64,000 nucleotides of DNA from Parolsenella massiliensis (GTDB taxonomy: Bacteria; Actinomycetota; Coriobacteriia; Coriobacteriales; Atopobiaceae): positions 967,111 through 1,031,110 of the forward strand of contig NZ_LT671675.1 in NCBI RefSeq assembly GCF_900143685.1, given 5' to 3'. The translations under genes and the position numbers were made by a program. Position 1 is the stretch's first letter; the number at the start of each line of letters is the position of its first letter. A model generated the notes under the pieces. The model did no database searches. It was not told the DNA's origin and was given only the letters and a program-made list of their open reading frames with translations. Shown in pieces: positions 10,972 through 47,628 of the stretch.

Positions 10972-11721
10972 TCACAGGCTGAGCGCGAACTCGAAGGCGC
11001 GAAGGCGCGCGTCGAGGTGCGTCGCGGCCCAGGTGTGAGCCATCGCCAGAAGCAAGCTCGCCATGGACGGGTCGATTTGTGACTCGAGCAACGCATCAAA
11101 CGTCGAACCCACGAGTGCGGCAACCCACGCAAGCGTCGCAGTGTCAACCGGCTCGGCCCCCTCGACCTCACGGGAGCAGCTCTCGCACAGCCCACCGCCC
11201 GCAAGCGCGGAGAACCTCGTGGCCGAGAACTCCCCGCAGGCCACGCATGAGTCCACGACCGGCCGCCAGCCCCCGTGCGAGAGCACCTTGAACACGTAGG
11301 CCGCCACCACCACGTCGAGATGGGGCTGGTCAGGGGCCTGCTCGCAGGCGAGGAGTGCCCGAGAGCAGATGGGGAAGAGAAACGGGTCCGGTGCGTCCTC
11401 GAAGCTCGTGAGCCGGGCCACCTCGCACACGACGCTCGCGGCGCTCACGCGCGCAAGGTCTCCCCTGAGGGATGCGTGCGGGCACGTGAGCTGGGCCTCC
11501 GCGACCACGTCGAGGTTTCGCCCAAGCGCGAGTAGCAGGTCGACCTCGCAGAAGAGCTGCACGCGCGCCGCGAGCTTGCCTCCGGGCTTTCTCGCGCCCT
11601 TTGCCACGGCACGGCCCTGGCAGCCGTCGGCCTCGAGCAGGGTGAGGATGAGGTCGCTCTCGCCCAGCTTGGTTCGGTCGATGACGATGGCCGAGGTATG
11701 GCGCGTGCGTCCGCGGGCCAC
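10972..11721 (-). CDS. recO: DNA repair protein RecO
   Basis: 249 residues from the GTG at 11719-11721, which lies 2 bp after the era stop with GAGG upstream. An upstream ATG would overlap era by about 55 bp. The N-terminal OB fold (TSAIVIDRTKLGESDLILTL, GARKPGGKLAARVQLF) is followed by a helical domain with a four-Cys zinc site (CVACGEF ... CESC). RecO anneals ssDNA and, with RecR, loads RecA onto SSB-coated gaps. It closes the long operon that begins at dnaJ2. The order era-recO is common in Gram-positives. Confidence 0.93.
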   Translation of the reverse strand: MARGRTRHTSAIVIDRTKLGESDLILTLLEADGCQGRAVAKGARKPGGKLAARVQLFCEVDLLLALGRNLDVVAEAQLTCPHASLRGDLARVSAASVVCEVARLTSFEDAPDPFLFPICSRALLACEQAPDQPHLDVVVAAYVFKVLSHGGWRPVVDSCVACGEFSATRFSALAGGGLCESCSREVEGAEPVDTATLAWVAALVGSTFDALLESQIDPSMASLLLAMAHTWAATHLDARLRAFEFALSL

Positions 11722-11723
11722 GG

Positions 11724-12626
11724 CTACTCGGTCGCCTCGTAGCCCAGACGGCGGATCTCGTTCTGGTCGCGACGCCACTGGGGACGCACCTGGACGCGAA
11801 GCTCGAGGTAGACCTTCGCCCCAAGCAGGCGCTCGATGTCGGGGCGAGCGGCCATGCCGATTTTCTTGATCATGGAGCCGCCCTTGCCCACGATGATGCC
11901 CTTCTGGCCGTCACGCTCCACAAGGATCGTGGCGCTCACGCTGGCGTGGCCGTCCTTCTTCCACTCGATGTCGTTGCAGACGACCGCAACGGAGTGCGGG
12001 ACCTCGTCGCGGCAGTTGAGCAGGACCTTCTCGCGAACGAACTCGCTCACGAGGTCCTCCTCGGTGGCATCGGAGTCCATGTCGTCGGGGAACCACTTGG
12101 GGCCCTCCGGGAGCTTCTCGCTCACAAGGGCGAGGAAGGCGTCGACGTTGAAGCCCTCCGTGGCGCTCGTGACGATAATGTCATCGAAGTGCGCGAGCTT
12201 GCTGGCGGCCTCCACCTGGGCCTGCATCTGGTCGGGCTTGGCGATGTCGGCCTTGGTGAGCACGAGGACCTTGGGCGCGTGGGCCTTGTCGACATGGGCG
12301 GCCACCCACTCGTCGCCCGTTCCCACCGGCTTCGTGGCGTCGACGAGCATGGCAACGACGTCGACGTCGGCGAGCTCGCCCAGGGCGGCGCGGTTGAGCT
12401 CCTTGCCCAGCGCGTCCTTGGGCTTGTGAAGGCCCGGGGTGTCAACGATGACGATCTGGCTGCTCGGCGTGTTCACGACCGCGCGCAGGCGCTTTCGCGT
12501 GGTCTGCGCCACGGGGCTCGTGATGGCGATGCGCTGGCCGCACGCGGCGTTGAGCAGCGTGGACTTGCCGGCGTTGGGGCGGCCCACGAGGGCGACGAAC
12601 CCGCTTCTGAACTTGGTGTCAGGCAT
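11724..12626 (-). CDS. era: GTPase Era
   Basis: 300 residues. G1 GRPNAGKSTLLNAACGQ, G3 DTPGLHKP, G4 TKAD and G5 SATEGFNVD are visible, then the C-terminal KH domain (about 215-295) with KGGSMIKKIGMAARPDIERL. Era binds the 3' end of 16S rRNA and checks 30S maturation. Its neighbours ybeY (16S 3' processing), dgkA, phoH and recO form the standard cluster. The SD AGGAG overlaps the dgkA stop codon region, so translation is probably coupled. Confidence 0.97.
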   Translation of the reverse strand: MPDTKFRSGFVALVGRPNAGKSTLLNAACGQRIAITSPVAQTTRKRLRAVVNTPSSQIVIVDTPGLHKPKDALGKELNRAALGELADVDVVAMLVDATKPVGTGDEWVAAHVDKAHAPKVLVLTKADIAKPDQMQAQVEAASKLAHFDDIIVTSATEGFNVDAFLALVSEKLPEGPKWFPDDMDSDATEEDLVSEFVREKVLLNCRDEVPHSVAVVCNDIEWKKDGHASVSATILVERDGQKGIIVGKGGSMIKKIGMAARPDIERLLGAKVYLELRVQVRPQWRRDQNEIRRLGYEATE

Positions 12627-12635
12627 GTGTGTCTC

Positions 12636-13019
12636 CTAGAGGAACTTCTCGATGAGGGCGGAACCGATCGTGATGATGCCCGCAGCCGCGACGAACACGC
12701 ACAGCACCCACACGGCGGCTGCGGCGATGTCCTTGGCGCGGCCCGCCAGGGGATGATACTCGGGCGAGACGAGGTCCACGATGGTCTCGATGGAGGTGTT
12801 GACCAGCTCTGCGCACAGCACGACGCCGCAGCACAGAAGCACGATGCCCCAGCGCACCGCGTCAAGCCCCGCGATGAGACCGGCAACGACCGCAAGCACG
12901 AACCCCGCGAGCATCACCTTGATGTTGCGTTCGCTTCTGATGGCGAACCTGAAGCCCTGAAAGGCGAAGCCGAAGCTCTTGCGAAACGAGGGGTGATTCT
13001 CCTTCGATCCCGGGATCAT
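12636..13019 (-). CDS. dgkA: Diacylglycerol kinase family protein (undecaprenol kinase type)
   Basis: 127 residues, a small trimeric-type integral membrane kinase. The N-terminal segment SFGFAFQGFRFAIRSERN, three membrane spans and the catalytic motif CAELVNTSIETIVDLVSPEY (Glu and Asn of the ENT-like site) mark the DgkA family. In Gram-positives this enzyme phosphorylates undecaprenol for recycling into cell-wall carrier lipid more than diacylglycerol. Its ATG overlaps the ybeY stop by 4 bp. Family is firm; substrate is inferred. Confidence 0.9.
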   Translation of the reverse strand: MIPGSKENHPSFRKSFGFAFQGFRFAIRSERNIKVMLAGFVLAVVAGLIAGLDAVRWGIVLLCCGVVLCAELVNTSIETIVDLVSPEYHPLAGRAKDIAAAAVWVLCVFVAAAGIITIGSALIEKFL

Positions 13020-17059: not shown

Positions 17060-18175
17060 CTAGTAGAGACGGCCCCGGTAGCCCGCCGTGCCAAAGCCGG
17101 ACATGCAGGAGACCATGAGCGCCATGAACACCGCGATGGTGGCCGCGTTCATGAAGCCGTTCACGAAGTAGCGCCACGCGTTCTTCCACCAGACGGACGC
17201 ATGGTGGAGCACGCCACCGCCCTTGGCGACAAGCACGAGGCCGATGACGAGCGGGATCCCCACGATGACGGAGAGCTGCGCGAGCACGTTGAGAAGCACG
17301 CCCAGCACCAAGAACGGCATGGCGAAGCCGATCATCTGGAAGCCCTGCGCGGCCTGGGGCTGCAGGCGCTCGCTTGGCACGCCCACGCGGCACACGAAGT
17401 CTCCCGTGGAGGAGCCGTTCGTGCCGGCGTTGCCCATGCCGGGTACGCGCACGGTGTCACCGTCATGGCTCCCGGCGGGAATGTCCACGACGACTTCGCT
17501 CGCCGAAAGCACGCGACCCGTGCCTCCGCAGGCGTCGCACGGGTCGACCACGACACGGCCCGACCCCTCGCACTCGGGGCAGACCATGTTCATGACGCCC
17601 AGACCCAGAAGGCTCGCGAGGTCAACCGAGATGTGGCCGGTGCCACCGCATGTGGGGCAGGTCCTCGCGTGGTCCGCGTGAACCGAACCCGCGCCGTGGC
17701 AGACGTCGCAGGCGACGTAGCGCTGGTAGGTGACGCCACGGCGCACGCCCTCCTTGGCCTGCTTGTCGTCGATGTCAAGCTGGTAGACGACGTCCCCGCC
17801 CGCCTTGGGGTTGTAGGCGCGGCTGCGACGCGAGCCCGCCTGGGGACCGGCGCCCGCCGCACCGAACGGCCAGCCCCAAAAGCCACCCATGCCGGCGAAC
17901 GGGTCGCCCTGCGGCTGGCTCGGCGAGCCGTACGAGGCGCCCGCGAAGGGGTTGCCGGACTGCATCGCGTCATAGCGACGGCGCTTGTCGGGGTCTGAGA
18001 GCACGGCGTAGGCCTCGGAGATCTCCTTGAACTTCTCCTCGGCGCCCGGCTCCTTGTTGATGTCGGGGTGATACTTGCGCGCGAGCTTCTGGAACGCCTT
18101 GCGAATCGTCGCGTCGTCCGCGTCATGCTCGACGCCAAGGATGGCGTAGTAGTCCTTGTCGTTCATGGATGCCAT
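17060..18175 (-). CDS. DnaJ-like protein with zinc fingers and a membrane C-terminus
   Basis: 371 residues from [21 protein letters not shown] domain with HPD, a Gly/Pro-rich linker and four zinc repeats ([32 protein letters not shown]) match type I DnaJ. The substrate domain is cut to about 50 residues and replaced by hydrophobic spans ([37 protein letters not shown]; a last one near the C-terminus). It is therefore probably membrane-anchored, with the J domain in the cytosol. It starts the operon containing dnaJ and mtaB. The ATG at 18175 is chosen for GGGAG upstream; M4 is an alternative. Confidence 0.8.
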
Positions 18176-18375
18176 GCTCGGATGGGCTCCCGTCTCGTGT
18201 CGATGGGCCTCGAGGGGTCCTCGGAGGCGCACGTATGCTCGACATTCTACCCAAACACACGCAGGGCCCACATGCCGGCCGGCACATATCTGATACGCTT
18301 TCTTCGTATGTGCCTGCGCGCCCGAGCGCGGCGCAACCCCTCACGCATCAGCCACCGCTACCAGGAGGTATCCAG
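18176..18375. promoter_or_regulatory. Divergent intergenic region dnaJ2/ettA
   Basis: Two hundred bases between divergent genes must hold promoters for both. A possible minus-strand -10 TAGAAT lies at 18244-18249. For ettA the region near 18285-18300 (CATATCTGATACGC) is a candidate, without a clear -35. The ettA SD AGGAGGT is at 18363-18369. Confidence 0.4.
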
Positions 18376-20097
18376 ATGGCAGAGTTCATCTACCAGATGT
18401 TCGAGGCCCGCAAGAGCCACGGCGACAAGGTCATCCTCGACGACGTGACCCTGAGCTTCTTCCCCGGCGCCAAGATCGGCGTCGTGGGTCCCAACGGCAT
18501 GGGCAAGTCCACGCTGCTCAAGATCATGGCCGGCAAGGAGGAGGTCACGAACGGCGACGCCCGCCTCACGCCTGGCTACACCGTGGGCCTGCTCGAGCAG
18601 GAGCCGCCGCTTGACGACGACAAGACCGTCATCGAGAACGTCCGCATGGCGTTCGGCGACCTCGTGGCAAAAATCGACCGCTTCAACGAGATCGGCAACG
18701 AGATGGCCGACCCCGACGCGGACTTCGACGCCCTCATGGCAGAGATGGGCAAGCTCCAGGACGAGATCGACGCCGCAAACGGCTGGGACCTCGACTCGCA
18801 GCTCACGCAGGCCATGGACGCCCTGCAATGCCCCGACCCCGACGAGCGCGTCGACCACCTCTCCGGTGGCGAGCGCCGCCGCGTGGCCCTGTGCCGCCTG
18901 CTGCTCGAAGCGCCGGACCTGCTGCTGCTCGACGAGCCCACGAACCACCTCGACGCCGAGAGCGTGCTGTGGCTCGAGCAGTTCCTGCACAACTACCCCG
19001 GCGCGGTGCTCGCCGTGACGCACGACCGCTACTTCCTCGACAACGTCGCCGAGTGGATCTGCGAGGTCGACCGTGGCCACCTCTACCCCTACAAGGGCAA
19101 CTACTCCACCTACCTGGAGACCAAGGCGGCGCGCCTGGAGGCCCAGGGCCAGAAGGAGGCCAAGCTAGCCACGCGTCTCAAGAACGAGCTCGAGTGGGTG
19201 CGCAGCAGTCCCAAGGCTCGCCAGGCCAAGAACAAGGCGCGCCTGGAGCGCTACGAGCAGATGGAGGCCGAGGCGCAAGCCGGCCGCAGCGTGAGCGTCA
19301 CCGACATCCGCATCCCCATGGGTCCGCGCCTGGGCACGAAGGTGCTCGTGGCAGACCACCTCACCAAGAGCTTCGGCGACCGCGTGCTCATCGACGACCT
19401 GTCCTTCGAGCTGCCGCGAAACGGCATCGTGGGCGTCATCGGCCCCAACGGCGTGGGCAAGTCGACGCTGTTCAAGATGATCGTGGGCGCCGCCGTCGAG
19501 GCGGGCGACACGGCCCTTGCCGCCTCGAAGACCGAGCAGCCCACGAGTGGCTCGATCACGCTCGGCGAGACGGTGAAGCTCTCCTACGTGGACCAGATGC
19601 GCTCCGGCATCGATGCCGACAAGAGCGTCTGGGAGGTGGTCTCGGACGGAAACGACTTCATCGTCGTGGGCAAGGACGAGATCAACTCCCGCGCCTACGT
19701 CTCGGCGTTCGGCTTCAAGGGAACCGACCAGCAGAAGCCCGCGGGCGTTCTGTCCGGCGGCGAACGCAACCGCCTGAACCTTGCGCTCACGCTCAAGCAG
19801 GGCGGAAACCTGCTGCTTCTCGACGAGCCCACGAACGACCTGGACACCGAGACGCTCGAGAGCCTCGAGGAGGCGCTGCTCGCCTTCCCCGGCTGCTCGG
19901 TCATCACCTCGCACGACCGCTGGTTCCTCGACCGCGTGGCGACCCACATCCTAGCCTGGGAGGGAACGGACGAGGAGCCGGGACGCTGGCACTGGTTCGA
20001 GGGCAACTTCGACGACTACCAGCGCGACCGCGTCCGCCGTCTGGGCGAGGAGGCCGCCAAGCCCCACCGCATCCACCGCAAGCTCACGAGGGACTAG
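18376..20097 (+). CDS. ettA: ABC-F translational throttle EttA
   Basis: 573 residues. Two ABC ATPase domains with Walker A GPNGMGKSTLLK and GPNGVGKSTLFK, signatures LSGGERRRVALCRLL and LSGGERNRLNLALTL, and Walker B LLLLDEPTNHLD and LLLLDEPTNDLD. The linker between them contains the P-site tRNA interaction motif region, and no membrane domain is present. EttA binds the ribosomal E site and senses the ATP/ADP ratio at the first peptide bonds. An extra stretch of about 17 residues follows the second Walker A compared with the E. coli form. The strong SD AGGAGGT fixes the start. Confidence 0.93.
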   Translation: MAEFIYQMFEARKSHGDKVILDDVTLSFFPGAKIGVVGPNGMGKSTLLKIMAGKEEVTNGDARLTPGYTVGLLEQEPPLDDDKTVIENVRMAFGDLVAKIDRFNEIGNEMADPDADFDALMAEMGKLQDEIDAANGWDLDSQLTQAMDALQCPDPDERVDHLSGGERRRVALCRLLLEAPDLLLLDEPTNHLDAESVLWLEQFLHNYPGAVLAVTHDRYFLDNVAEWICEVDRGHLYPYKGNYSTYLETKAARLEAQGQKEAKLATRLKNELEWVRSSPKARQAKNKARLERYEQMEAEAQAGRSVSVTDIRIPMGPRLGTKVLVADHLTKSFGDRVLIDDLSFELPRNGIVGVIGPNGVGKSTLFKMIVGAAVEAGDTALAASKTEQPTSGSITLGETVKLSYVDQMRSGIDADKSVWEVVSDGNDFIVVGKDEINSRAYVSAFGFKGTDQQKPAGVLSGGERNRLNLALTLKQGGNLLLLDEPTNDLDTETLESLEEALLAFPGCSVITSHDRWFLDRVATHILAWEGTDEEPGRWHWFEGNFDDYQRDRVRRLGEEAAKPHRIHRKLTRD

Positions 20098-20128: not shown

Positions 20129-21799
20129 TTGGGTTTCAAGGGACAGACCAAAGAGACCGGGGGCCATACGGGAAGAGAGCTCAACTGGTTTCTCACGCTT
20201 GGAATAGCGCTCGTCACGCTCATCTGCGCGGCACTCGCCGCGACGTCTCTGGTCCTCACCGCCTCCCCATCGCTTGCTCCCCTGAGCGAGCATGTGACCA
20301 TATGGCACCTCTTTGCGCCAGGCAGGACCCTCATGACCTGCCTGGCGCTTCTTGCCGGCGTTGCCTATGCCGCGCTTGCGGTTCTCATCGCGCGTAGGTC
20401 CTCCTCGATACCCGAGCGCGGCTTTGTGGCGGCGCTCGGCGCGGCGGCGATGGCGTTCTGCGTTGTTTGGATTGCGATGAACGCCACCGAGCACAACGGC
20501 TTCTCTGACTCCGCGCAAATCCTCGCCTACGCAAGGCAGGTCGCCCGCGGGGACACAAGCTCGTTTCTCCCCCACAGCGATTCCTTTGCCGGGAAGCTCC
20601 CGGGAGACATGTACCTGTCGAACTACCCCTTCCAAAGCGGAATACTTCTGCTCATGGAGGGGTTCTGTCGCCTGTTTGGAACCTGGGACGTCCAGGCGTT
20701 CCAACTGGCTTGCGCCCTATGCTGCGTGGGAACGTCGCTCGTCCTTGTGGACACGGCAAGGGCTTGCGGCCGTCCGAAGGCCGAGAGGCTCCTCGTGGCC
20801 TTCCTCTCGCTGACGCTGTTCGCCCCGCTTGTGTTCGTGGTGTTTCCCTATGGCAACACGATTGGCCTGTTCTTTGCCCTGCTCGCCATGGACCTGTGGC
20901 TGAGGTCACGCGAGCAAACGGGGGCCCGGCGCCACTTGTACGTCCTGACGGGGTTTCTCGCGTTTGCGTTTGGCCTAGCCGTAAAGTCGACCTACGTCGT
21001 CGTCGCCATAGGAATCTTGCTCGTGCTGCTCATAGACTGCCTCAGGAAGCGGGACGCCTGGGCTACCGCCGCGTTTGTCGTGCTCCTCGTCGTGGCGTCA
21101 CAGGCGTCAGGCATCATTCCGCAGAGAATCATGGAGGCGCGCCTGGGCTACGAGCTTCCGGCCAACCAGCCCAAGACGGCCTGGATCGCCATGGGTCTTT
21201 CGGATGACAGCGTGCTCGGCGCCGACATGCCAGGCTGGTGGAGCACCTCTGCCCTGGACAGCCAGGTTGCAAGCGAAGGTGACGTCGAGGCCATGGAGCG
21301 CAACGCCGAGGACTCGATCACCACGTCGCTTGCCACGTTTGGAGGCGACCCCGGCTATGCGGCCTGGTTCTTTGGCAAGAAGCTCGCAACCGAGTGGCTC
21401 GACCCAACGTTCCAGTCCCTCTACATCGCGGGATGTGGAACCATGCGCCCCGAGGCCCAGGCGCGCACGAACGCCAGCGACGGCAGGTTCGACCCGGCAG
21501 ACGCGAGCCTGCCCCAGGGAATCCTAGGGCGCGCCCTCGAGTGCGTCATGGACGGACAGCAGAGCGTCGTCTACTTCGGCGCCACGGCAGGTGGCCTCGC
21601 ACTTCTCGGAGAGGTAAGAAGAAGGAGGGCGAACACGCTCGAGCTCGCCCTCCCCTGCGCCTTCTTCATGGGGTTTGTCGTCTACACGCTCTGGGAGGCC
21701 AAGGGCATGTACGCCCTGCCCTTCTTCCTGTGCCTTCTGCCCCTTGCGGCAAGGGGCATTGCGCTCATGGCGCAAAGGCATGCAGCGGATAAGGCCTAG
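20129..21799 (+). CDS. GT-C type membrane glycosyltransferase-like protein
   Basis: 556 residues starting at TTG (20129) with AGGGGGAGG 6 nt upstream. About eleven membrane spans; a large external loop after the first two spans carries NATEHNGFSDSAQILAYARQ, where a GT-C-type acidic residue would lie. The layout resembles the PMT_2/ArnT group (GT39/GT83) that uses polyprenyl-phosphate sugars outside the membrane. It shares its stop region with the convergent LtaS-like gene, so it probably belongs to the envelope module here. No substrate can be assigned, and the family call is by topology only. Confidence 0.6.
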   Translation: MGFKGQTKETGGHTGRELNWFLTLGIALVTLICAALAATSLVLTASPSLAPLSEHVTIWHLFAPGRTLMTCLALLAGVAYAALAVLIARRSSSIPERGFVAALGAAAMAFCVVWIAMNATEHNGFSDSAQILAYARQVARGDTSSFLPHSDSFAGKLPGDMYLSNYPFQSGILLLMEGFCRLFGTWDVQAFQLACALCCVGTSLVLVDTARACGRPKAERLLVAFLSLTLFAPLVFVVFPYGNTIGLFFALLAMDLWLRSREQTGARRHLYVLTGFLAFAFGLAVKSTYVVVAIGILLVLLIDCLRKRDAWATAAFVVLLVVASQASGIIPQRIMEARLGYELPANQPKTAWIAMGLSDDSVLGADMPGWWSTSALDSQVASEGDVEAMERNAEDSITTSLATFGGDPGYAAWFFGKKLATEWLDPTFQSLYIAGCGTMRPEAQARTNASDGRFDPADASLPQGILGRALECVMDGQQSVVYFGATAGGLALLGEVRRRRANTLELALPCAFFMGFVVYTLWEAKGMYALPFFLCLLPLAARGIALMAQRHAADKA

Positions 21800-23790
21800 T
21801 GGTCTCCCTGACCCCAGCTCACTCCCGTGTAGCTCCAATTCGAGAAGTCGAGAGCATCGCCGTCGACGACATACTGGTCCATCGTCGTCTCGTGCACGCC
21901 GTCGTAGCGCTCCATGACAAAGTAGCGGAGACGCTGCGCCGAGTCGGAGACGTCGAAGTACGAGGTACCATCGCCAAATGACGCGGCGTCCGCCTCGTCG
22001 CCCATCGCCTTGAGCACCGTCGGCTGGAAGTCGGCGTGGCTGACGGGCGCCTCGGACACCTGGTATTCGCCCCTGGCGCCGGCGGGCTTCACGAGACAGA
22101 CCGGCGAGATGGGGTGGTTGAGGTCGTCGAGGTACTGCTCGACGATCCTGAACACGCCGCGCGTCTGCTGCTCCATCGTGGAGCCACCCTCGGGAACGTC
22201 CATGTTCTCGTCGTAGACGAACGGCACGTGGGAGCCGTTGAGGTGGATGACCTTGAGCGCGCCCGCCTTGTCCTGCTCGTCGCTCACGGAAAGGCCGCGG
22301 CTCTTGAGCTCGCCGTAGTAGGCGCCGTCATCAATGACGTAGGGAGTGTCGTAGTCGGAAGTCTCGCCAGACCCAATTCCAAGAACAGCCTGGTTCATGT
22401 CGTCCGTGTAGTACAAGAAGGCGGGCTTGACCGCCCAGGGGGCATTGCGATAGAGGGAGACCTTCGAGAGGATCCCAATGGTGGCCCACACGTCCACGCC
22501 CTTGTCGGCCGCCGGATGGATGTTGTCCGTCATGTCGCCGTAGAGCGACTTGCCCGTATAGAGGCAGTCGGCATAGAGGGAGACCGAGTAGTTGGCGTCA
22601 TTGGCGACGTCTGAGATGAAGCTGCCCTTCTCCCAGCGTCCGTCGACGTAGGAGGCATAGTCGTCTCCGGCGTTGAGCATCTGGCCCGTCATGAGGAAGG
22701 GAACGCCGTAGGCGGTGGGGATCATCGAGCCCACGGTTTTGCGGAAGTACGTGAACCCCGTGAAGCTGTCGAGCGTGTCGGGATAGTCGGCGAGCACCGT
22801 GTCGAACTCCTGCGTGTCAACGGTGTCGACGATAAACACGATGACGTTGCTCTTGTCGGAAACCTCGAACAGTCCCTGCTTGGAGACCATGTACTCAGCC
22901 GGCTGCGTGATGGCGCGCTTGACGTAACGCGCCACGCCCACTCCCTGGACGAGCATGAGGACGACGGCCAGGGAGCAGAGCCCCAGGCGACCCAGCGACG
23001 GCACCTTGACGACAAAGACGATGGCGGTAGCGACAAGAGCGGCCCAGACAACGAGGCTCACCGCAGTGGAGCCAGCGAAGCTTCCCCCAGTCCACCGCCT
23101 TGCCATCCGCCGTGGGAAGGCCGCCATTCATGAACAGCGCCTGAGCGAGGCTCGCGACGCCAAGCGCGAACACGACGGCCACCGCCACGTCAAAGGCGCG
23201 GCCCCTGAGCGCAGAAAGCAGCAGTGCCACGGGGCGGTTCCCGCGAGAAAGGCAAACGCGAGCATGACGATCCATGCGTCATGCAGGTTGAACAGCAGGC
23301 TGTCGCCGTTGGCGCCAACTATCTCATAGGGCGCCGCCACGAAGTTCGTGAACATGAGCAGGGCCATGGCCACGAGCGCAATGCCAAAGCGCTTGGACCA
23401 CGTGAGCGGCGCGCCGTCATAGGCACCGCCCTTGGGGGCCATAAGCGTCGTGGGCTTGGACGTGGGGAGGTCGGGGCTCGCGTCAACGACGCGAGACACC
23501 TGCGTCTCGACCGTCTTGCCGGCGTTCTCGTCCACCTTGAGGACGCGGAGCACGACGCGGCTCAGGCGCCTCCAGGCCACACCGATGACGGCCGAGAGCG
23601 AGAGCGCCACGGCAACGCCGGCGAGCGCCTGGATGGTGTAGGTCATGACGCTCGGGTCCACGTAGGCGAGCGCCGGGCGCGAGAGTCCGGCCCACAGGCA
23701 GGCGGCCATGGCGAGCAGCGCGACGGAATCGAGCACCGCAAGCGCCGTCGCGGCCGCTGCCTTCCGGACACAGGGGGAGGTGTTGCCCAC
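21796..23790 (-). pseudogene. LtaS/EptA-like membrane phosphotransferase, interrupted by two compensating indels
   Basis: Reads as one 664-residue protein if a base is added at the G run 23231-23234 and one removed from the C run 23084-23088. Start: GTG 23788-23790 with AGGGGAG upstream, one base after the YidC-TagF stop. The N-terminal half is membrane (five spans). The external half (from about residue 290) is an alkaline-phosphatase/sulfatase fold: NVIVFIVDTVDTQEF, a nucleophile-region motif SMIPTAYGVPFLMTG and HLNGSHVPF. These match enzymes that move phosphoglycerol or phosphoethanolamine from lipid to glycans, such as LtaS and EptA. As sequenced, about 47 codons (23089-23230) are out of frame. 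Homopolymer sequencing error or a real pseudogene are both possible. Confidence 0.75.
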
Positions 23791-23791
23791 G

Positions 23792-25783
23792 CTACTCCCC
23801 TCCCTTGCCAAGCCTCGGGAGCATGACGTCGTCGGCGAGCAGCTGCCTTCGGTCCTCGCGGGCCGCGAGCTCGGCGGCCTCGTCGCCCTCGCGGACGGCC
23901 TGGGCCTCGAGCATGAGGTCGAAAAGATAGCGACCGTCGCGCTCGGCGCCATGGCCGGGGTGGTAGATCATCTCGTCGCGCACGGCCTCGAGGCGGTCGC
24001 GCCACGAGGCGCCGTCGTCGACCATCTCCTGCACGACGTCGGCGAGCCTGCCCTCCAGCTCCTCGGGCGCCAGGCTCACGCCCACGCGGTTCCTGAGCGA
24101 AATGTCGGTGGGCTCGATGCCGAGGTCACGCCACTCGGGATTCGTCTCCTTCATCGGCGTGTCGACGAACACGCAGGGCTTGAAGGCCACGAGGGCGAGC
24201 TCGCAGAACACGCTCGACCAGTCGGTGACGAGCACGTCGGCGTCCAGGATGGAGTCGGAGCTGGAGAAGTCCTGCTCGAAGTAGAGGTCCTCAGCCGGAA
24301 CGTCGGCGAAGCGCGCCTGCAGGGCCTCCCAGCGGGGGCGGTAGCGCTTGGTGTACTCGGGGTGCGGGCGCACGACGACCCTCCAGCCGCGGCCCAGCAG
24401 CGGGCGGATCGCCTCGTCGGCGCACAGGTCCAGGATGTTGTCCTCCTGCCACGACGGGGCGATGAGCACGGTGGGGCGTGCGTTGGTGGCGTGGCCGCGG
24501 GCCAGGTAGTCGGCGCGCTCGGTGTCGATGAGGTCGTAGCCGCACGCGGCGAGCTCGCGCGGGGCCAGCCCCGCCTGCGCCTCGCGGGCGCGGGCCTCCG
24601 CCACCTGGTGCGGACCCACGCACATGAGCGCGTCGTAGTGGTCGAAGGCGGCGGCGTGGCTCACGAGGTGCAGCGACGTGGGGTGATGGAACGCGTAGAC
24701 GTAGCGCGTGTTCCTGCGCACGTAGGAGCGCTTGACGTAGAAGTTGTCCAGGTCATCGAGCGTCATGACCACGACGTCGGCGTCCATCTTCATCATGAGG
24801 GTGATGAGGCGTTTGTCGCCCACGTAGTAGGGAAGCACGCGCGGGTGGGACTCGGCGTAGGCGAAGACCTGGTCGTCGGGGTCGCCGGTGACGTAATGCA
24901 CGCACGCGTCGGAGTTGGCCAGCAGCCACTCGACGGCGCCGCGGAAGTACTTCCAGAAGCCGCTGCGCTCCGAGTAGAACACGACGTGCTTGCCCACGAC
25001 GGAAAAGAAGCGCTTGTAGTCGGCCCTCTCCCTCCTGGCGAGCGGGTCGGGCCTCCACCAGGGGCCCTTGCGCACCGACAGCGCGTTGAGCTCGGCGAGC
25101 TCGGCCTTGGAGGCCTCCAGCTCGGCGTAATCGACGTACTTGGCCGGGCGGATGCACAGGTTGCACAGCGCCTGTACCGCGATCGACAGCAGGTTGGAGC
25201 ACACCCAGTAGAACGCCATACCGGCCGACACGTAGATGCCCAGGAAGAAGGACAGCGCGATGGACAGGCCGTTGGTGGAGTTCTTCTCGGCGCGGGACTG
25301 CTCGCGCTGCAGCGGGTTGATGTGGTTGGAGGCCACGCCCATCACCACGGCCGACAGCGTGGCGAGCACGGGCATGATCCACGAGGCGCCGCCGTCCTCC
25401 ATGGGGACGAGCCCCAGGAACTCGGTGCCCGCCGCGCCCGAGTCGGCGATGGCGTGGATGACGTCGACCAGGCCGAACAGGATGACGACCTGCACGGCCA
25501 GCGGGATGAGCGAGAGCAGCGGGTGGTAGTGGTACTCCTTGTTGAGCTGGCTCTGGCGCTCGCCGATCTGCTCCTGGTCGCCGAAGTACTTGGCCTTGAC
25601 GCGGTTGAGCGCCGGCATCATGCGCACCATGACGATGGAGTTCCACTGGCACCACAGAGACAGCGGCATGAGGACGAGCTTGGCTATGAGGGTGAACAGC
25701 AGGATGGTGGCCCACCAGTTGTGGGTGAGCTCGTAGCACGGCTGCATGATGGCCATGAAGATGTCAGTGATCCAGGAGAACAC
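23792..25783 (-). CDS. Fusion of YidC-like membrane insertase and CDP-glycerol glycerophosphotransferase
   Basis: 663 residues in one uninterrupted frame, GTG start. Residues 1-225 are YidC/Oxa1-like: span 1 ATILLFTLIAKLVLMPLSLW with Lys35 where YidC usually has the groove Arg, a charged cytoplasmic loop, then four further spans. Residues 270-600 are a TagB/TagF-type Glyphos_transf domain: YAFHHPTSLHLVSHAAAFDH, IAPSWQEDNILDL, RPHPEYTKRY and DADVLVTDWSSVFCELAL. TagF polymerises glycerol-phosphate from CDP-glycerol at the cytoplasmic face. The fusion would tether it to the membrane. The LtaS-like gene follows after one base, so the two act together by context. The coupling of insertase and transferase is unexplained. 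Confidence 0.85.
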   Translation of the reverse strand: MFSWITDIFMAIMQPCYELTHNWWATILLFTLIAKLVLMPLSLWCQWNSIVMVRMMPALNRVKAKYFGDQEQIGERQSQLNKEYHYHPLLSLIPLAVQVVILFGLVDVIHAIADSGAAGTEFLGLVPMEDGGASWIMPVLATLSAVVMGVASNHINPLQREQSRAEKNSTNGLSIALSFFLGIYVSAGMAFYWVCSNLLSIAVQALCNLCIRPAKYVDYAELEASKAELAELNALSVRKGPWWRPDPLARRERADYKRFFSVVGKHVVFYSERSGFWKYFRGAVEWLLANSDACVHYVTGDPDDQVFAYAESHPRVLPYYVGDKRLITLMMKMDADVVVMTLDDLDNFYVKRSYVRRNTRYVYAFHHPTSLHLVSHAAAFDHYDALMCVGPHQVAEARAREAQAGLAPRELAACGYDLIDTERADYLARGHATNARPTVLIAPSWQEDNILDLCADEAIRPLLGRGWRVVVRPHPEYTKRYRPRWEALQARFADVPAEDLYFEQDFSSSDSILDADVLVTDWSSVFCELALVAFKPCVFVDTPMKETNPEWRDLGIEPTDISLRNRVGVSLAPEELEGRLADVVQEMVDDGASWRDRLEAVRDEMIYHPGHGAERDGRYLFDLMLEAQAVREGDEAAELAAREDRRQLLADDVMLPRLGKGGE

Positions 25784-25892
25784 GGGGCGGCTCCGATGCG
25801 TCGTAGTTCACCGCGGCGCCCTTGAACCAGGGACCCGCGAACAAAACCTCTTCACTTTAAGCTAACAAACAGTTTGGAAGGCCAAGACCGGC

Positions 25893-42912: not shown

Positions 42913-42974
42913 ACTCAGCAACAAGAACAATGCCGAAATTCGAAATCACCTCGGCTCAACGCACAGGAGCGCCC

Positions 42975-44816
42975 ATGATCGAGCACAAGCTCTCGAACGT
43001 CTTGCTCAAGCCCGCCGACCACCTCAAGGGTCACGACGAGCTCTACGCCTTCTGCTCCTCGCCACTCGTCTATGACGAGGCGGCGGGGGCCCTCGTTGTT
43101 GGCGAGCCCACGGACTTCATGACCTTCTTGAACGCCTGCTCCACCGGAAAGTGGGCAAAGTACTGCGGCATTCACGAGGTCACGCTCTCCCTCGAGCTCT
43201 CCGGCGACGCCTGCGAGGTCGTCATCAAGGGCCTTCCCGCGGGTGCGGCCGCAGACGCCGAGAGCACCGTCGAGCTCGACCGCCTCGCCGTGGAGTCCGA
43301 GCAGGGTGCGCATGCCCGCGTGAGCGCCACGATCGACGCCGCGGGCATGGACCTCGTGGCCTTCGAGCTCCTGCCTGCCGGGCAAACGTTTCTTCATGCG
43401 GGCTCGTACGCGGCGCGCGTCGACGAGGACCGCGTGCGCCCGGTGCGCATCGCCCTTTCCACGACGACGTTCAAGAAGGAGCACTACATCGTCCCCAACA
43501 TCGAGCTCATGCGTGCAAGCGTCGCCGAGGATAGCGGCCCCATTCACGACAACTTCCACATGTTCGTCGTCGACAACGGCCAGACCCTTGACGCCGAGGC
43601 GCTCTCCGACGAGCTCGTCACCGTCATTCCCAACGCCAACGTGGGCGGCGCGGGCGGATTTGCCCGCGGCATGCTCGCGGCCCTCGACTCCAAGGAGCCC
43701 TTCACGCACGTCATCCTCATGGACGACGACGTCCACGTGTTCCCCGAGAGCATCAAGCGCACCTATAACCTCCTGGCGCTTGCGAGCGACGAGTACGCGG
43801 ATGCGTTCGTGAACGGCGCGATGCTCTCCGTCGAGCAGCCCACACGCCTGTTCGAGGACGTGAGCCACGTGCTTCGCAGCGGCAAGTACGCCAAGCTCAA
43901 GCCCGACCACTACGTGGACCGCCTCGACCAGGTCGTTGCCAACGAGCGCGAGAACGTCGAGGTGGAGCACGCCTATGGCGCCTGGTGGTTCTCATGCATC
44001 CCGATGGCGAGCATCCGCGAGAAGGGCCTGCCGCTGCCCGTGTTCGTTCGCTGCGATGACGTGGAGTACGGCCTACGCAGCAACCCCACCTACATGACGA
44101 TGAACGGCATCTGCGTGTGGCACGAGAGCTTCGAGGGGCGCCCGCGTGCCTCGGTTGACTGCTACCAGTATGTGCGCAACTTCCTCGTCATGGCCGCCTG
44201 CGACGGATTCGTGAACACGGAGCTGTTCATGAGCCGCGTGTGGCGAAACGTCGTGCTGCGCCGCCGCGACCTCGAGTATGGCGCCGCCGAGCTGCTGCTC
44301 CAGGGCGTCGAGGACTACCTGCGCGGCCCCGAGTGGCTCATGGAGGTGGACGGAAGCGCCCTCATGCGCAAGAACGCCCAGCTCAACGACAAGTTCGTTC
44401 CTCTCGCAGACATCGACCCCGAGCTTCTTGACGCCGCGAACCTCGACGCCATCCACCCCGAGCCGCACCACGCGATCGGCCTTGCCGGCAAGCTGCGCAA
44501 GACGCTGCCCTACGACAAGCACCTGCTGCCGGACGCCCTTCTTAAGAAGGCCCCCGGACACATGCAGACGACGGGGCCGTGCGTCTACGACAATGACACG
44601 ATCGCGAGGAAGACGGTGCTCGTGCTCGACGTCACGGGCGAGAAGGCCGCCGTTCGCCGCATGGACCGAGAGCGCAACCGCCGCATCATCGAGCGCGAGC
44701 GCACCCTCAAGCGCCGCTGGCAGCTCGAGCACGAGAAGGTTGCGGGCGCCTACGCCGACGCCTTCCCCACGATGAGGAGCGAGGCCTACTGGCGCCGCCG
44801 CCTGGGCATGGAGTAG
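42975..44816 (+). CDS. GlfT2-like galactofuranosyltransferase family protein
   Basis: 613 residues from ATG 42975 (AGGAG upstream). An N-terminal beta-rich domain (1-170), a GT-A domain with VVDNGQTLDAEAL, NANVGGAGGFARGM, the metal motif ILMDDDVHVFPESI and FVRCDDVEYGLR plus VWHESFE (catalytic region), then a helical C-terminus. This architecture and length match mycobacterial GlfT2 (about 637 aa), which polymerises galactofuranose. It is transcribed divergently from the pyr operon. A galactan product is inferred; UDP-galactopyranose mutase is not in the window. Confidence 0.75.
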   Translation: MIEHKLSNVLLKPADHLKGHDELYAFCSSPLVYDEAAGALVVGEPTDFMTFLNACSTGKWAKYCGIHEVTLSLELSGDACEVVIKGLPAGAAADAESTVELDRLAVESEQGAHARVSATIDAAGMDLVAFELLPAGQTFLHAGSYAARVDEDRVRPVRIALSTTTFKKEHYIVPNIELMRASVAEDSGPIHDNFHMFVVDNGQTLDAEALSDELVTVIPNANVGGAGGFARGMLAALDSKEPFTHVILMDDDVHVFPESIKRTYNLLALASDEYADAFVNGAMLSVEQPTRLFEDVSHVLRSGKYAKLKPDHYVDRLDQVVANERENVEVEHAYGAWWFSCIPMASIREKGLPLPVFVRCDDVEYGLRSNPTYMTMNGICVWHESFEGRPRASVDCYQYVRNFLVMAACDGFVNTELFMSRVWRNVVLRRRDLEYGAAELLLQGVEDYLRGPEWLMEVDGSALMRKNAQLNDKFVPLADIDPELLDAANLDAIHPEPHHAIGLAGKLRKTLPYDKHLLPDALLKKAPGHMQTTGPCVYDNDTIARKTVLVLDVTGEKAAVRRMDRERNRRIIERERTLKRRWQLEHEKVAGAYADAFPTMRSEAYWRRRLGME

Positions 44817-44854
44817 CTCTGGGGCATCGGTGCAGAAATCAAAGTACGAATGAC

Positions 44855-44891
44855 GAGAGGGACGACCGCCACCAGGACGGTCGCCCCTCTC
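44855..44891. terminator. Bidirectional terminator-like hairpin
   Basis: GAGAGGGACGACCG and CGGTCGCCCCTCTC pair over 14 bp with one mismatch between the two convergent glycosyltransferase genes. T runs are weak on both sides. Confidence 0.6.
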
Positions 44892-44936
44892 CATAACGCT
44901 ACGTGGGTGCCCAACGCAAGGCCCGTGCCTGGCACG

Positions 44937-45872
44937 CTACTTCTCGGGCCTCTTCACGTACTCGATCTGGGGATGGAAGCGAAGGCCCTCGATCGTGCCG
45001 CCCACCACGGCACGCGCGCGATCGAGCTTGCGGCCCTTGGCCTCAAGGGCGATGCGAGCCAGGTGGTTGAGGTCGCGGGCAAGCACGTAGGCATATCCGG
45101 ACGCGCCCTCGCCACGATAGAGCACGATGTCGTTGCGAAAGGCCAGGCGGAAGCGGGCGATGCGCTCGCCCGAGTCGAGCGCGACGTTGCCGGCGCCGTT
45201 CACCTTGCACTTGTGCGTCACGATGCTCGTGCCCACCACGTAGCAGGGGTACTTGCGAGACACGCGGCGCGTGAACTCCCAGTCGTCAGTCCAGATGAAG
45301 AAGTCCTTGATGGGAAGCCCCAGCTCGGCAATGACGTCTGCCGGCACGAACAGCGAGACGAACGAGGCAAGCGTGCAGGGCTGAAGCTCGGGCGAGAAGT
45401 CCTCTATCGTGGTGTGGAGCGGATGGCGCTGGCGGTTCATCGTGCAGGGATTGCCATCGGTCCACAAGCACACGCTCGTGAGATATCCGTAGTCGCCCTC
45501 GAGCCCCTCGCCGGCAAGCAGAAGCTCACGGAGGGTATCGGGATGCGTCATGCAGTCGTCGTCCATGACCCAGACGTAGTCATGGCCTGCCTCGACCGCC
45601 ACACGCATGCCATAGTTGAAGCCGCCGGCACCGCCGAGGTTCTCGCCCGTGTTGAAGTAGGAGATGCGCCCGGAGGTCACATAGGGCTCAAGCGCCTCCT
45701 CCGTTCCGTCCGTGCTCGCGTTGTCCACGACGATGACCGAGAGCTCATAGGAGTCGCCAAGACGCGCCAGGTCCTGCGCCTCTAGGCAGTCGAGGCACTC
45801 GAGCAGAAGCTGCTTGCGGTTGTACGTCACGACGACGGCGGCAACGCTCTTCTTGCGCGAATCGGTGCCCAT
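44937..45872 (-). CDS. Family 2 glycosyltransferase, GlfT1-like
   Basis: 311 residues from ATG 45870-45872 (AGGGGGA upstream). GT-A fold with VVVTYNRKQLLLECL, VDNASTDGT, NTGENLGGAGGFNYGM and the metal motif YVWVMDDDC; later FFIWTDDWEFTRRV. Size and motifs resemble mycobacterial GlfT1, which adds the first galactofuranose units onto the lipid linker. It directly follows the Wzt-like gene (10 bp), giving ABC export plus initiating transferase in one operon. A rhamnosyltransferase is the main alternative. Confidence 0.75.
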   Translation of the reverse strand: MGTDSRKKSVAAVVVTYNRKQLLLECLDCLEAQDLARLGDSYELSVIVVDNASTDGTEEALEPYVTSGRISYFNTGENLGGAGGFNYGMRVAVEAGHDYVWVMDDDCMTHPDTLRELLLAGEGLEGDYGYLTSVCLWTDGNPCTMNRQRHPLHTTIEDFSPELQPCTLASFVSLFVPADVIAELGLPIKDFFIWTDDWEFTRRVSRKYPCYVVGTSIVTHKCKVNGAGNVALDSGERIARFRLAFRNDIVLYRGEGASGYAYVLARDLNHLARIALEAKGRKLDRARAVVGGTIEGLRFHPQIEYVKRPEK

Positions 45873-45882
45873 TGGTGTCCCC

Positions 45883-46650
45883 CTAGTTGAACTGCCTGCG
45901 ATAGGCCTGGCAGACCTCATCGGTGTCACCGATCATGCGCTGCTCGCCCTTCTCGATCCAGACGCAGCGCGTGCACAGGCGCTCCACCTGCTCGAGCGAG
46001 TGGCTCACGAACAGCACGGTCACGTGCCCGCTCTCGATGAAATCGCGGATGCGGCGCTCGCACTTCTCCTGGAAGAAGACGTCACCCACGGAGAGCGTCT
46101 CGTCGACGATGAGGACGTCGGGCTCGACGACCGTGGCGATGGCGAAGGCGATACGGGCCACCATGCCGCTCGAGTAGTTCTTGAGCGGCATGTCCATGAA
46201 GTCCTTGAGCTCGGCGAAGTCCACGATCTCGTCGATGTGGGAATCGATGAACTCCTTGGTGTAACCAAGCAGCGCGCCGTTGAGGTAGATGTTCTCGCGG
46301 GCGGTGAGCTCGATGTCGAAGCCTGCGCCGAGCTCGATGAGCGGCGCGATGTTGCCGTGGACCTTGACGGAGCCCTCGCTGGGCTCAAGCACGCCGGCGA
46401 TGATCTTGAGCATCGTGGACTTGCCCGAGCCGTTCGTGCCCACAAGGCCCAGCACCTCGCCGCGACGCACCTTGAAGCTCACGTGCTTGAGGGCGTGGAA
46501 CTCCTCGAAGAACAGCTCGTGCTTCACGAGCTTGATGAAGTACTCCTTGAGGTTGTCGAGGCGCTCGCTCGCCATGTTGAAGATCATGGAGACGTCGTCG
46601 ACCTCGATGGCATAGTCCTCGGAAGTCTTGATGTCGTTCTTATCAGCCAT
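45883..46650 (-). CDS. Polysaccharide ABC exporter ATP-binding protein (Wzt/TagH type)
   Basis: 255 residues. The family's N-terminal feature of a long pre-Walker segment (MASERLDNLKEYFIKLVKHE) precedes Walker A GLVGTNGSGKSTMLKII, signature KNYSSGMVARIAFAIA and Walker B PDVLIVDETLSVGD. It energises export of lipid-linked polysaccharide or teichoic acid. No C-terminal carbohydrate-binding domain is present, as in TagH-short or mycobacterial Wzt. The permease gene is just upstream. Confidence 0.9.
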   Translation of the reverse strand: MADKNDIKTSEDYAIEVDDVSMIFNMASERLDNLKEYFIKLVKHELFFEEFHALKHVSFKVRRGEVLGLVGTNGSGKSTMLKIIAGVLEPSEGSVKVHGNIAPLIELGAGFDIELTARENIYLNGALLGYTKEFIDSHIDEIVDFAELKDFMDMPLKNYSSGMVARIAFAIATVVEPDVLIVDETLSVGDVFFQEKCERRIRDFIESGHVTVLFVSHSLEQVERLCTRCVWIEKGEQRMIGDTDEVCQAYRRQFN

Positions 46651-46677
46651 GGAATGAAACCAGCCTTCTCGAGCGGA

Positions 46678-47529
46678 CTAGATGTAGAGGATGAACTTGC
46701 GCTGGAGCTTGCGGAACACGGCGTAGCCAACCGCGATCATGAGGACCGCCCAGAAGGCGCACATGCCGATCGTGATGAGCTCGGGCGGCTGGCCGTTCAG
46801 CAGAATCATGCGCATGAACGTCACGTAGTTGTACATGGGGTTCGCGAGCATGATGACGCGCATGAAGCCGTACGGAACGGCCGCGATCATGCTCACGGGC
46901 CAGAACAGCGGCGTCACGTAGCTCCAAGCCAGGATGACGACGCCCCACAGGTGGATGACGTCGCGGAAGAAGACCGCGAGCGAAGAGAGCAGCATGCTCA
47001 TACCGATGCAGAAGCCCATAAGCAGAACGAGGAGCACCGGGAGCAGGATGATGGTCCAGCTGACCCACACGCCCTCCCACAGCATGACGATGAAGACGGC
47101 AATCATCGAGAACGCGAAGTTGACGAGCGAGAAGAGAACGCGCTCGACCGGGAACACCGTCTTGTTGATGCGCACCTTCTTGAGAAGCGGCGCGGCGTCG
47201 AGAATCGAAGTGACGCCCTGGTTGGTGGAGTCCGCGAAGATCGTCCAGATGACGTTGCCGAGGATGAGGTAGAGCGGGTAGTGCTCCATGTTGTCATAGC
47301 GCAGGAAGAACGAGAACACGAGCGACATGACGACCATCATGAGCAGCGGATTGAGGACGCTCCACACGACTCCGAGTACGCTGCGACGATACTTACGCTT
47401 GAAGTCCTTGCCCACGAGCTGGCGAAGGATGAAGCTCTCCTTGGCGCGGTCGTTGGGCGCAAATGCCTCGGAGGCGGGCACGGGCGCGGGCACGCTCCTT
47501 GCTGCCTGGGCGTTCTGGTCTTGGGACAA
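46678..47529 (-). CDS. Polysaccharide ABC exporter permease (Wzm/TagG type)
   Basis: 283 residues from TTG 47527-47529 with AAGGAG 6 nt upstream; an ATG-like longer frame has no SD. ABC2-type permease: cytoplasmic amphipathic segment RQLVGKDFKRKYRRSVLGVV, six spans and FWPVSMIAAVPYGFMRVIML near the end. Together with the ATPase downstream it forms the exporter of the glycan made by the neighbouring transferases. Confidence 0.88.
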   Translation of the reverse strand: MSQDQNAQAARSVPAPVPASEAFAPNDRAKESFILRQLVGKDFKRKYRRSVLGVVWSVLNPLLMMVVMSLVFSFFLRYDNMEHYPLYLILGNVIWTIFADSTNQGVTSILDAAPLLKKVRINKTVFPVERVLFSLVNFAFSMIAVFIVMLWEGVWVSWTIILLPVLLVLLMGFCIGMSMLLSSLAVFFRDVIHLWGVVILAWSYVTPLFWPVSMIAAVPYGFMRVIMLANPMYNYVTFMRMILLNGQPPELITIGMCAFWAVLMIAVGYAVFRKLQRKFILYI

Positions 47530-47628
47530 TTCGGTCTCCTTGACGGTCCTACAGATAGCGCGCAGAGCGCGCGAGAGCCGCCCGATGCGTACGGAGCGTC
47601 TCAAGCTTTAGATGATAGCAGCGCCGGA

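Follow-up and report, generated by a model that had tools for sequence, protein, structure and literature searches.

Bacterial insertases of the YidC type carry a conserved arginine in the hydrophilic groove of the first transmembrane (TM) helix, and YidC inserts membrane proteins of 73–111 residues in size without Sec. TagF works on lipid-linked glycans, and we know of no member of its Pfam family (PF04464) reported to use CDP-choline or CMP-2-aminoethylphosphonate (CMP-AEP). Lipid scrambling in vitro, along the groove used for insertion, is a property of YidC and other Oxa1-family insertases; for YidC, a different protein from the one described here, it was demonstrated with generic phospholipids (PMC10491306). 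In the phosphonyl-tailoring (Pnt) pathway PntC makes CMP-AEP, as biochemical evidence from Atopobium rimae and Treponema denticola has established; the later steps and the further genes of Pnt clusters are undescribed, and YidC is not mentioned (Rice et al., 2019; PMC6697681). Our literature search gave nothing relevant on a YidC–glycerophosphotransferase fusion or such a system, in line with an earlier sequence-only reading of the present locus as a little-described system. The fusion reported here is apparently a conserved component of an undescribed headgroup-decoration system.

The window analysed is a stretch of 64 000 nucleotides from the Parolsenella massiliensis genome (complete; 2.0 Mb in one contig). 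A single uninterrupted frame of 663 codons on its minus strand (23792..25783) encodes a 663-residue protein in which a YidC/Oxa1-fold membrane module (residues 1–225; 25109..25783, minus strand) is joined to a TagF/TarL-like GT-B domain (residues about 262–632; 23888..25000, minus strand). Direct reading places a Shine–Dalgarno GGAG (25791..25794, minus strand) 7 nt upstream of the GTG start at 25783; an in-frame TGA 27 nt upstream of the GTG fixes the start position, and the frame closes with a TAG stop at 23794–23792. The frame and the YidC/Oxa1 module agree with the sequence-only reading, which gave no strand. Pfam matches the protein to two families only, PF02096 at residues 23–208 (90.3 bits against a cut-off of 35) and PF04464 at residues 438–539 (28.6 bits, cut-off 22.1); the LicD family, PF04991, is not matched. 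Because the PF04464 match spans about 100 residues, the Pfam model falls short of the 'full' Glyphos_transf domain that had been placed at residues 270–600, and it is in the predicted structure that the GT-B fold is complete. The P. massiliensis genome encodes one PF04464 protein only.

The AlphaFold2 model of the fusion protein, built on 52 homologues (mean pLDDT of 86.7, pTM of 0.67), has a YidC-type five-TM-helix core with a cytosolic C1 hairpin (residues 39–83), followed by a cytosolic linker helix leading to the GT-B domain. A family profile of the YidC part also matches Escherichia coli YidC among PDB chains (5mg3/3wvf; E = 2e-17). The groove position is occupied by Lys35 (TLIAK in the fusion versus TAIIR in the housekeeping YidC of the same genome), as had been read from the sequence, and the lysine is invariant in 52 of 52 fusion homologues. 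The corresponding residue is Asn in the module-swapped sister system described below, and the replacement of the groove Arg suggests specialization of the module. The genome has a separate housekeeping YidC, in the order rnpA-yidC-jag-rsmG.

For the GT-B domain, Foldseek ranks the CDP-glycerol-bound structure of TagF first (3l7l; E = 4e-9). With VIA-align, TarL with CDP-ribitol (8va1) gives a Z-score of 20.7 (r.m.s.d. of 4.0 over 310 residues), and UDP-GlcNAc 2-epimerases, which share the fold, score within 1 Z of it; by sequence alone, TagF is absent from the matches to PDB chains at an E of 0.01. Residues conserved across both systems are K351-R352-S353, H366, P443-S444-W445, R472-P473-H474-P475 and D521-x-S523, of which H366, R472-P-H474-P and D521-x-S523 are kept in 27 of 27 sequences. 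These appear to supply the catalytic histidine and nucleotide-binding motifs of the TagF/TarL type, with H366 the probable equivalent of TagF His444, judged by its motif rather than by superposed coordinates. The residues that follow the invariant His366 vary by group: HHxTS in Coriobacteriia, mostly H[YA]xLS alongside phosphonate genes and HG[IM]FS alongside a CobD-like fusion. One locus (L091) has HHATS yet carries phosphonate genes, so a rule linking motif to pathway is confounded with phylogeny.

Directly downstream of the fusion, 1 nt past its stop, is the GTG start (23790) of a partner gene (21796..23790, minus strand), delineated by tblastn/blastx against intact homologues. It encodes a YVDPS TM hairpin and an LtaS-like AP-superfamily protein. 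The copy in the window carries two compensating frameshifts (about 23225 and 23075, ~150 nt apart) enclosing a TGA (23130–23128). Because this adjacent copy is broken, function in P. massiliensis depends on the intact paralogue at 386–388 kb (G000:C1:386330-388360); in a congener (G126) the sole partner copy found is at another locus (C1:1397120-1399162). Intact homologues begin with an AY[VI]DPSVMTYTIQ hairpin, followed in the predicted model by five TM helices and the AP-superfamily domain, in which D326, T363, H522 and D574-H575 are invariant (L037 numbering). By sequence, the closest protein of solved structure is LtaS (E = 5e-13), and EptA and PbgA are among the Foldseek matches. The predicted models place the end of the YidC core in the cytosol, the compartment of the CMP donors, and the AP domain of the partner outside, as in LtaS; the intact homologues also have the threonine nucleophile and metal ligands of LtaS.

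Fusion homologues with 52–90% identity, mostly over at least 600 residues, are present in 48 of 298 genomes of the class, far more than chance would give, and diverged forms in two more bring the total to 50, from 29 genera. Among named genomes, 177 relatives were identified by a scan, and the 80 retained include members of the Atopobiaceae, Eggerthellaceae, Oscillospiraceae, Lachnospiraceae, Christensenellaceae, Victivallales and Kiritimatiellae and one Planctomycetia MAG; those outside Coriobacteriia have 43–48% identity, and single MAGs among them may carry binning errors. Gene calls in the relatives come from a simple codon-score script and their starts are approximate. Lancefieldella rimae has the fusion (L079). 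No relative was found in viral contigs, and a phage origin was rejected on that ground. A sequencing error, which the sequence-only reading had named as an outcome that would undo its claim, is ruled out by full-length fusions in so many genera: the fusion is real.

The fusion is one half of an obligate two-protein system. Fusion and partner occur in the identical 50 of 298 class genomes, with no discordant case (genomes treated as independent), and where coordinates were compared they are separated by 14–98 nt. At five loci (L046, L082, L083, L084 and L091) a single chain of about 1360–1400 residues has the order YidC-TagF-YVDPS-AP. In Clostridia the AP protein is encoded by a separate gene, as is the hairpin, a protein of 73–111 residues (L092:11910-12167; L098:14560-14829; L107:7440-7715; L108:14610-14900). 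Members of this stand-alone hairpin family combine the AY[VI]DPS motif with a TM helix and a basic tail and belong to no Pfam family.

The same parts recur in another arrangement. Stand-alone TagF-like homologues with 27–29% identity start with YIDPGTGSMLFT and a TM helix; they are found in seven of the 298 class genomes, an eighth (G096) being left out as its only hit at 27% is its own fusion. Where flanks were readable, these YIDPG-TagF proteins lie near or beside 60KD_IMP proteins of 860–1060 residues, mostly with a Sulfatase domain as well, the YidC-sulfatase proteins spanning 863–1059 residues (L170:8013-9278 and 17064-19652; L171:6858-13619; L173:7182-11616; L174:4520-8818; L175:7616-11602); L172 offers a fragmented frame only and L176 ends at a contig edge. 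A YidC-AP protein beside a YIDPG-TagF protein means that the same four modules (YidC, YIDP hairpin, TagF and AP) have been re-paired. Genes of the LicCA or PntC/PhnW type are near most of the stand-alone TagF-like genes. The partner, the single-chain proteins and this sister system had all escaped the sequence-only reading.

Enzymes that make CMP-activated headgroups (Lic/Pnt class) are linked to the fusion. Of 20 fusion loci outside Coriobacteriia, 18 encode either a PEP mutase or a cytidylyltransferase; the other two (L105, L107) come from genomes with phosphonopyruvate decarboxylase (Ppd). Donor-type genes at these loci include Ppd, Fe-ADH, PhnW (TIGR03301, 410 bits; L090), a PEP mutase with fused cytidylyltransferases (L096) and, at L108, a fusion of a cytidylyltransferase with a CobD-like PLP enzyme. 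Cytidylyltransferase–CobD/HisC-like PLP fusions are present with no Ppd in the genome (L108:12727-14529; L166:3888-5699); as a guess, their product could be a CDP donor of the ethanolamine or serinol type. Within Coriobacteriia, LicC-LicA is present in 47 of 50 fusion genomes versus 57 of 248 others (Fisher p = 6e-22, genomes treated as independent). Two of the three fusion genomes that lack it (G090, G096) belong to one genus, and in G090 a cytidylyltransferase–CobD-like gene adjoins the partner. The donor genes lie away from the fusion in most Coriobacteriia; adjacency is strong outside the class and partial inside it. LicD is retained in 39 of 50 fusion genomes, P. massiliensis included, and its loss as a general rule was rejected; LicD is missing from ten genomes that carry both LicCA and the fusion, for example G236, with the consecutive order LicCA-LicB-fusion-AP-AP.

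In P. massiliensis itself, LicCA, LicB, LicD and the intact partner share a ~28-kb stretch (about 386–414 kb) with six choline-binding-repeat proteins (L156:15521-19733; L157:1-6708 and 11139-12866; 395–413 kb), some with transglutaminase-core, NlpC/P60 or metallo-beta-lactamase domains. A search of the complete genome with TIGR01518 gave no match for TagD, and PF01128 gave a strong score for IspD only, not for TarI. Supply of CDP-glycerol or CDP-ribitol is thus not apparent, and the earlier assignment of CDP-glycerol as donor, with polymer synthesis, is not supported: the neighbours of the relatives make CMP-AEP or CDP-choline. A phosphonate donor was rejected for this organism, as its genome has no Ppd match. 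Ppd is present in only six of the 50 Coriobacteriia carriers, and the idea of one phosphonate donor shared by all members was therefore given up in favour of several CMP-headgroup donors. The donor in P. massiliensis is most likely CDP-choline from LicC-LicA; for other carriers we propose CMP-AEP or the product of the cytidylyltransferase–CobD-like PLP fusion.

Further genes were noted in passing. A second LicCA-like protein of 890 residues lies beside an amidohydrolase gene in P. massiliensis (G000:C1:674000-689000; L158:5304-9554), and in another genome (G162; L165) this pair recurs close to the fusion. The window also holds a TagGH-like ABC exporter (PF00005, PF01061), a glycosyltransferase-like gene and a 628-residue protein without a Pfam family (42930-47604); a 624-residue protein resembling the last is found with an ABC exporter beside LicCA and the fusion in G132 (L164).

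Alongside the fusion, folds, catalytic residues, obligate AP pairing and donor-pathway association, which were computed directly, we infer that the acceptor is a lipid, that the YidC fold serves for translocation and in which order the steps follow. The fusion may be the cytosol-facing half of a two-protein system that decorates the surface with small, charged, CMP-activated phospho- or phosphono-headgroups, for example phosphocholine or aminoethylphosphonate, by relay via a lipid; this is the likeliest reading, which we hold at slightly less than an even chance. The cytosolic TagF-like domain would use CMP-X to place X-phosphate on a lipid of the membrane, with diacylglycerol or a glycolipid as the probable acceptor. 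The YidC-fold module and the YVDPS hairpin of the partner would form a membrane core holding the lipid product, through which its headgroup would cross the bilayer. Outside, the LtaS-like AP domain would take X-phosphate onto its threonine and hand it to a surface glycan by LtaS/EptA-type chemistry, with the lipid being recycled. Obligately paired, sometimes single-chain enzymes on opposite sides of the membrane imply that a substrate must cross. More tentatively, and as a possibility only, we suggest that the relay is modular, with the insertase fold and YIDP hairpin repurposed as a lipid-headgroup passage between TagF-like and LtaS-like transferases, so that CMP-activated choline, aminoethylphosphonate or similar, made inside, reaches glycans that are already exported; the modules exist in two arrangements and a single-chain version. 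Among the roles that the sequence-only reading offered, the best remains reuse of the insertase fold to anchor the protein in the membrane or to guide lipid.

Several observations count against the relay: CDP-choline already has a user, because LicD is present in 39 of the 50 fusion genomes; LicCA occurs without the fusion in 57 genomes; most Coriobacteriia have their donor genes away from the fusion; the scrambling by YidC concerns generic phospholipids; PF04464 proteins are not known to act on CDP-choline or CMP-AEP; and the partner copy beside the fusion in P. massiliensis is broken. In an account without translocation, the TagF-like domain would decorate a lipid-linked glycan of the cytosolic leaflet with phosphocholine, AEP or a like group, the YidC module would be an anchor only, export would fall to a separate flippase, and outside the membrane the AP partner would edit headgroups or redistribute them. 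The fusion would then be a non-homologous substitute for LicD. This shares the donor association and is consistent with the ten LicCA genomes that have the fusion and lack LicD, with the TagGH-like exporter in the window and with the action of TagF on lipid-linked glycans. It leaves unexplained the exact 50/50 AP pairing, the single-chain fusions and the recurrence of YidC in both module arrangements, and we regard it as rather unlikely.

It is improbable that the YidC module serves as a private insertase, chiefly for the YIDPS hairpin protein or the partner, and couples assembly to synthesis. The 73–111-residue hairpin protein that stands alone in Clostridia is of a size suited to Sec-free insertion, and YidC accompanies the YIDP hairpin in both arrangements; the change of groove Arg to Lys in the fusion and to Asn in the sister system and the complete housekeeping YidC speak against it, and fusion to catalytic domains would go unexplained. 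Distinctly improbable is a teichoic-type polymerase that would use CDP-glycerol to build a polymer of glycerol-phosphate or the like, primed or extended outside by the AP partner. Although the fold is closest to those of TagF and TarL, the partner is closest to LtaS and the congener G126 has TagD, the complete P. massiliensis genome has no TagD match or strong TarI, and the operons outside Coriobacteriia encode CMP-phosphonate or CobD-type pathways rather than TagD-type CDP-glycerol synthesis.

The transferase steps of bacterial phosphonyl tailoring are undescribed, and the system is a candidate to supply them; in gut and oral bacteria it is also a candidate route, independent of LicD, by which phosphocholine reaches the surface. 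If the relay is true, the YidC fold does something besides protein insertion, and the physiological meaning of lipid scrambling by insertases becomes directly testable. In addition, proteins can match PF04464, and be named CDP-glycerol transferases, in the absence of detectable CDP-glycerol synthesis.

Compared with the YidC/Oxa1/Alb3 insertases (PF02096; 5mg3, 3wo6), the fusion has the five-TM core and C1 hairpin in common, but it carries a groove Lys throughout and a C-terminal enzyme domain and is a second copy outside the rnpA-yidC-jag context. It shares the GT-B fold, His366, RPHP and DxS with the CDP-glycerol/CDP-ribitol polymerases TagF and TarL (PF04464), whereas it is joined to YidC, is tied to choline or phosphonate pathways and resides in a genome without TagD or strong TarI. 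The partner resembles LtaS, EptA and PbgA in its five TM helices, extracellular AP domain, Thr nucleophile and metal ligands, and differs in its extra N-terminal YVDPS hairpin and in being obligately paired with, or fused to, the YidC-TagF protein. With LicD and the LicABC pathway the fusion likely shares the donor, CDP-choline, and a surface role, although its transferase family is unrelated and ten LicCA genomes have it without LicD. The fusion loci follow the same cytidylyl-activation logic as the Pnt pathway; in Clostridia and other groups, genes for Ppm, Ppd, PntC and AEP transaminase lie next to the fusion, which is a candidate for the missing transferase of that pathway.
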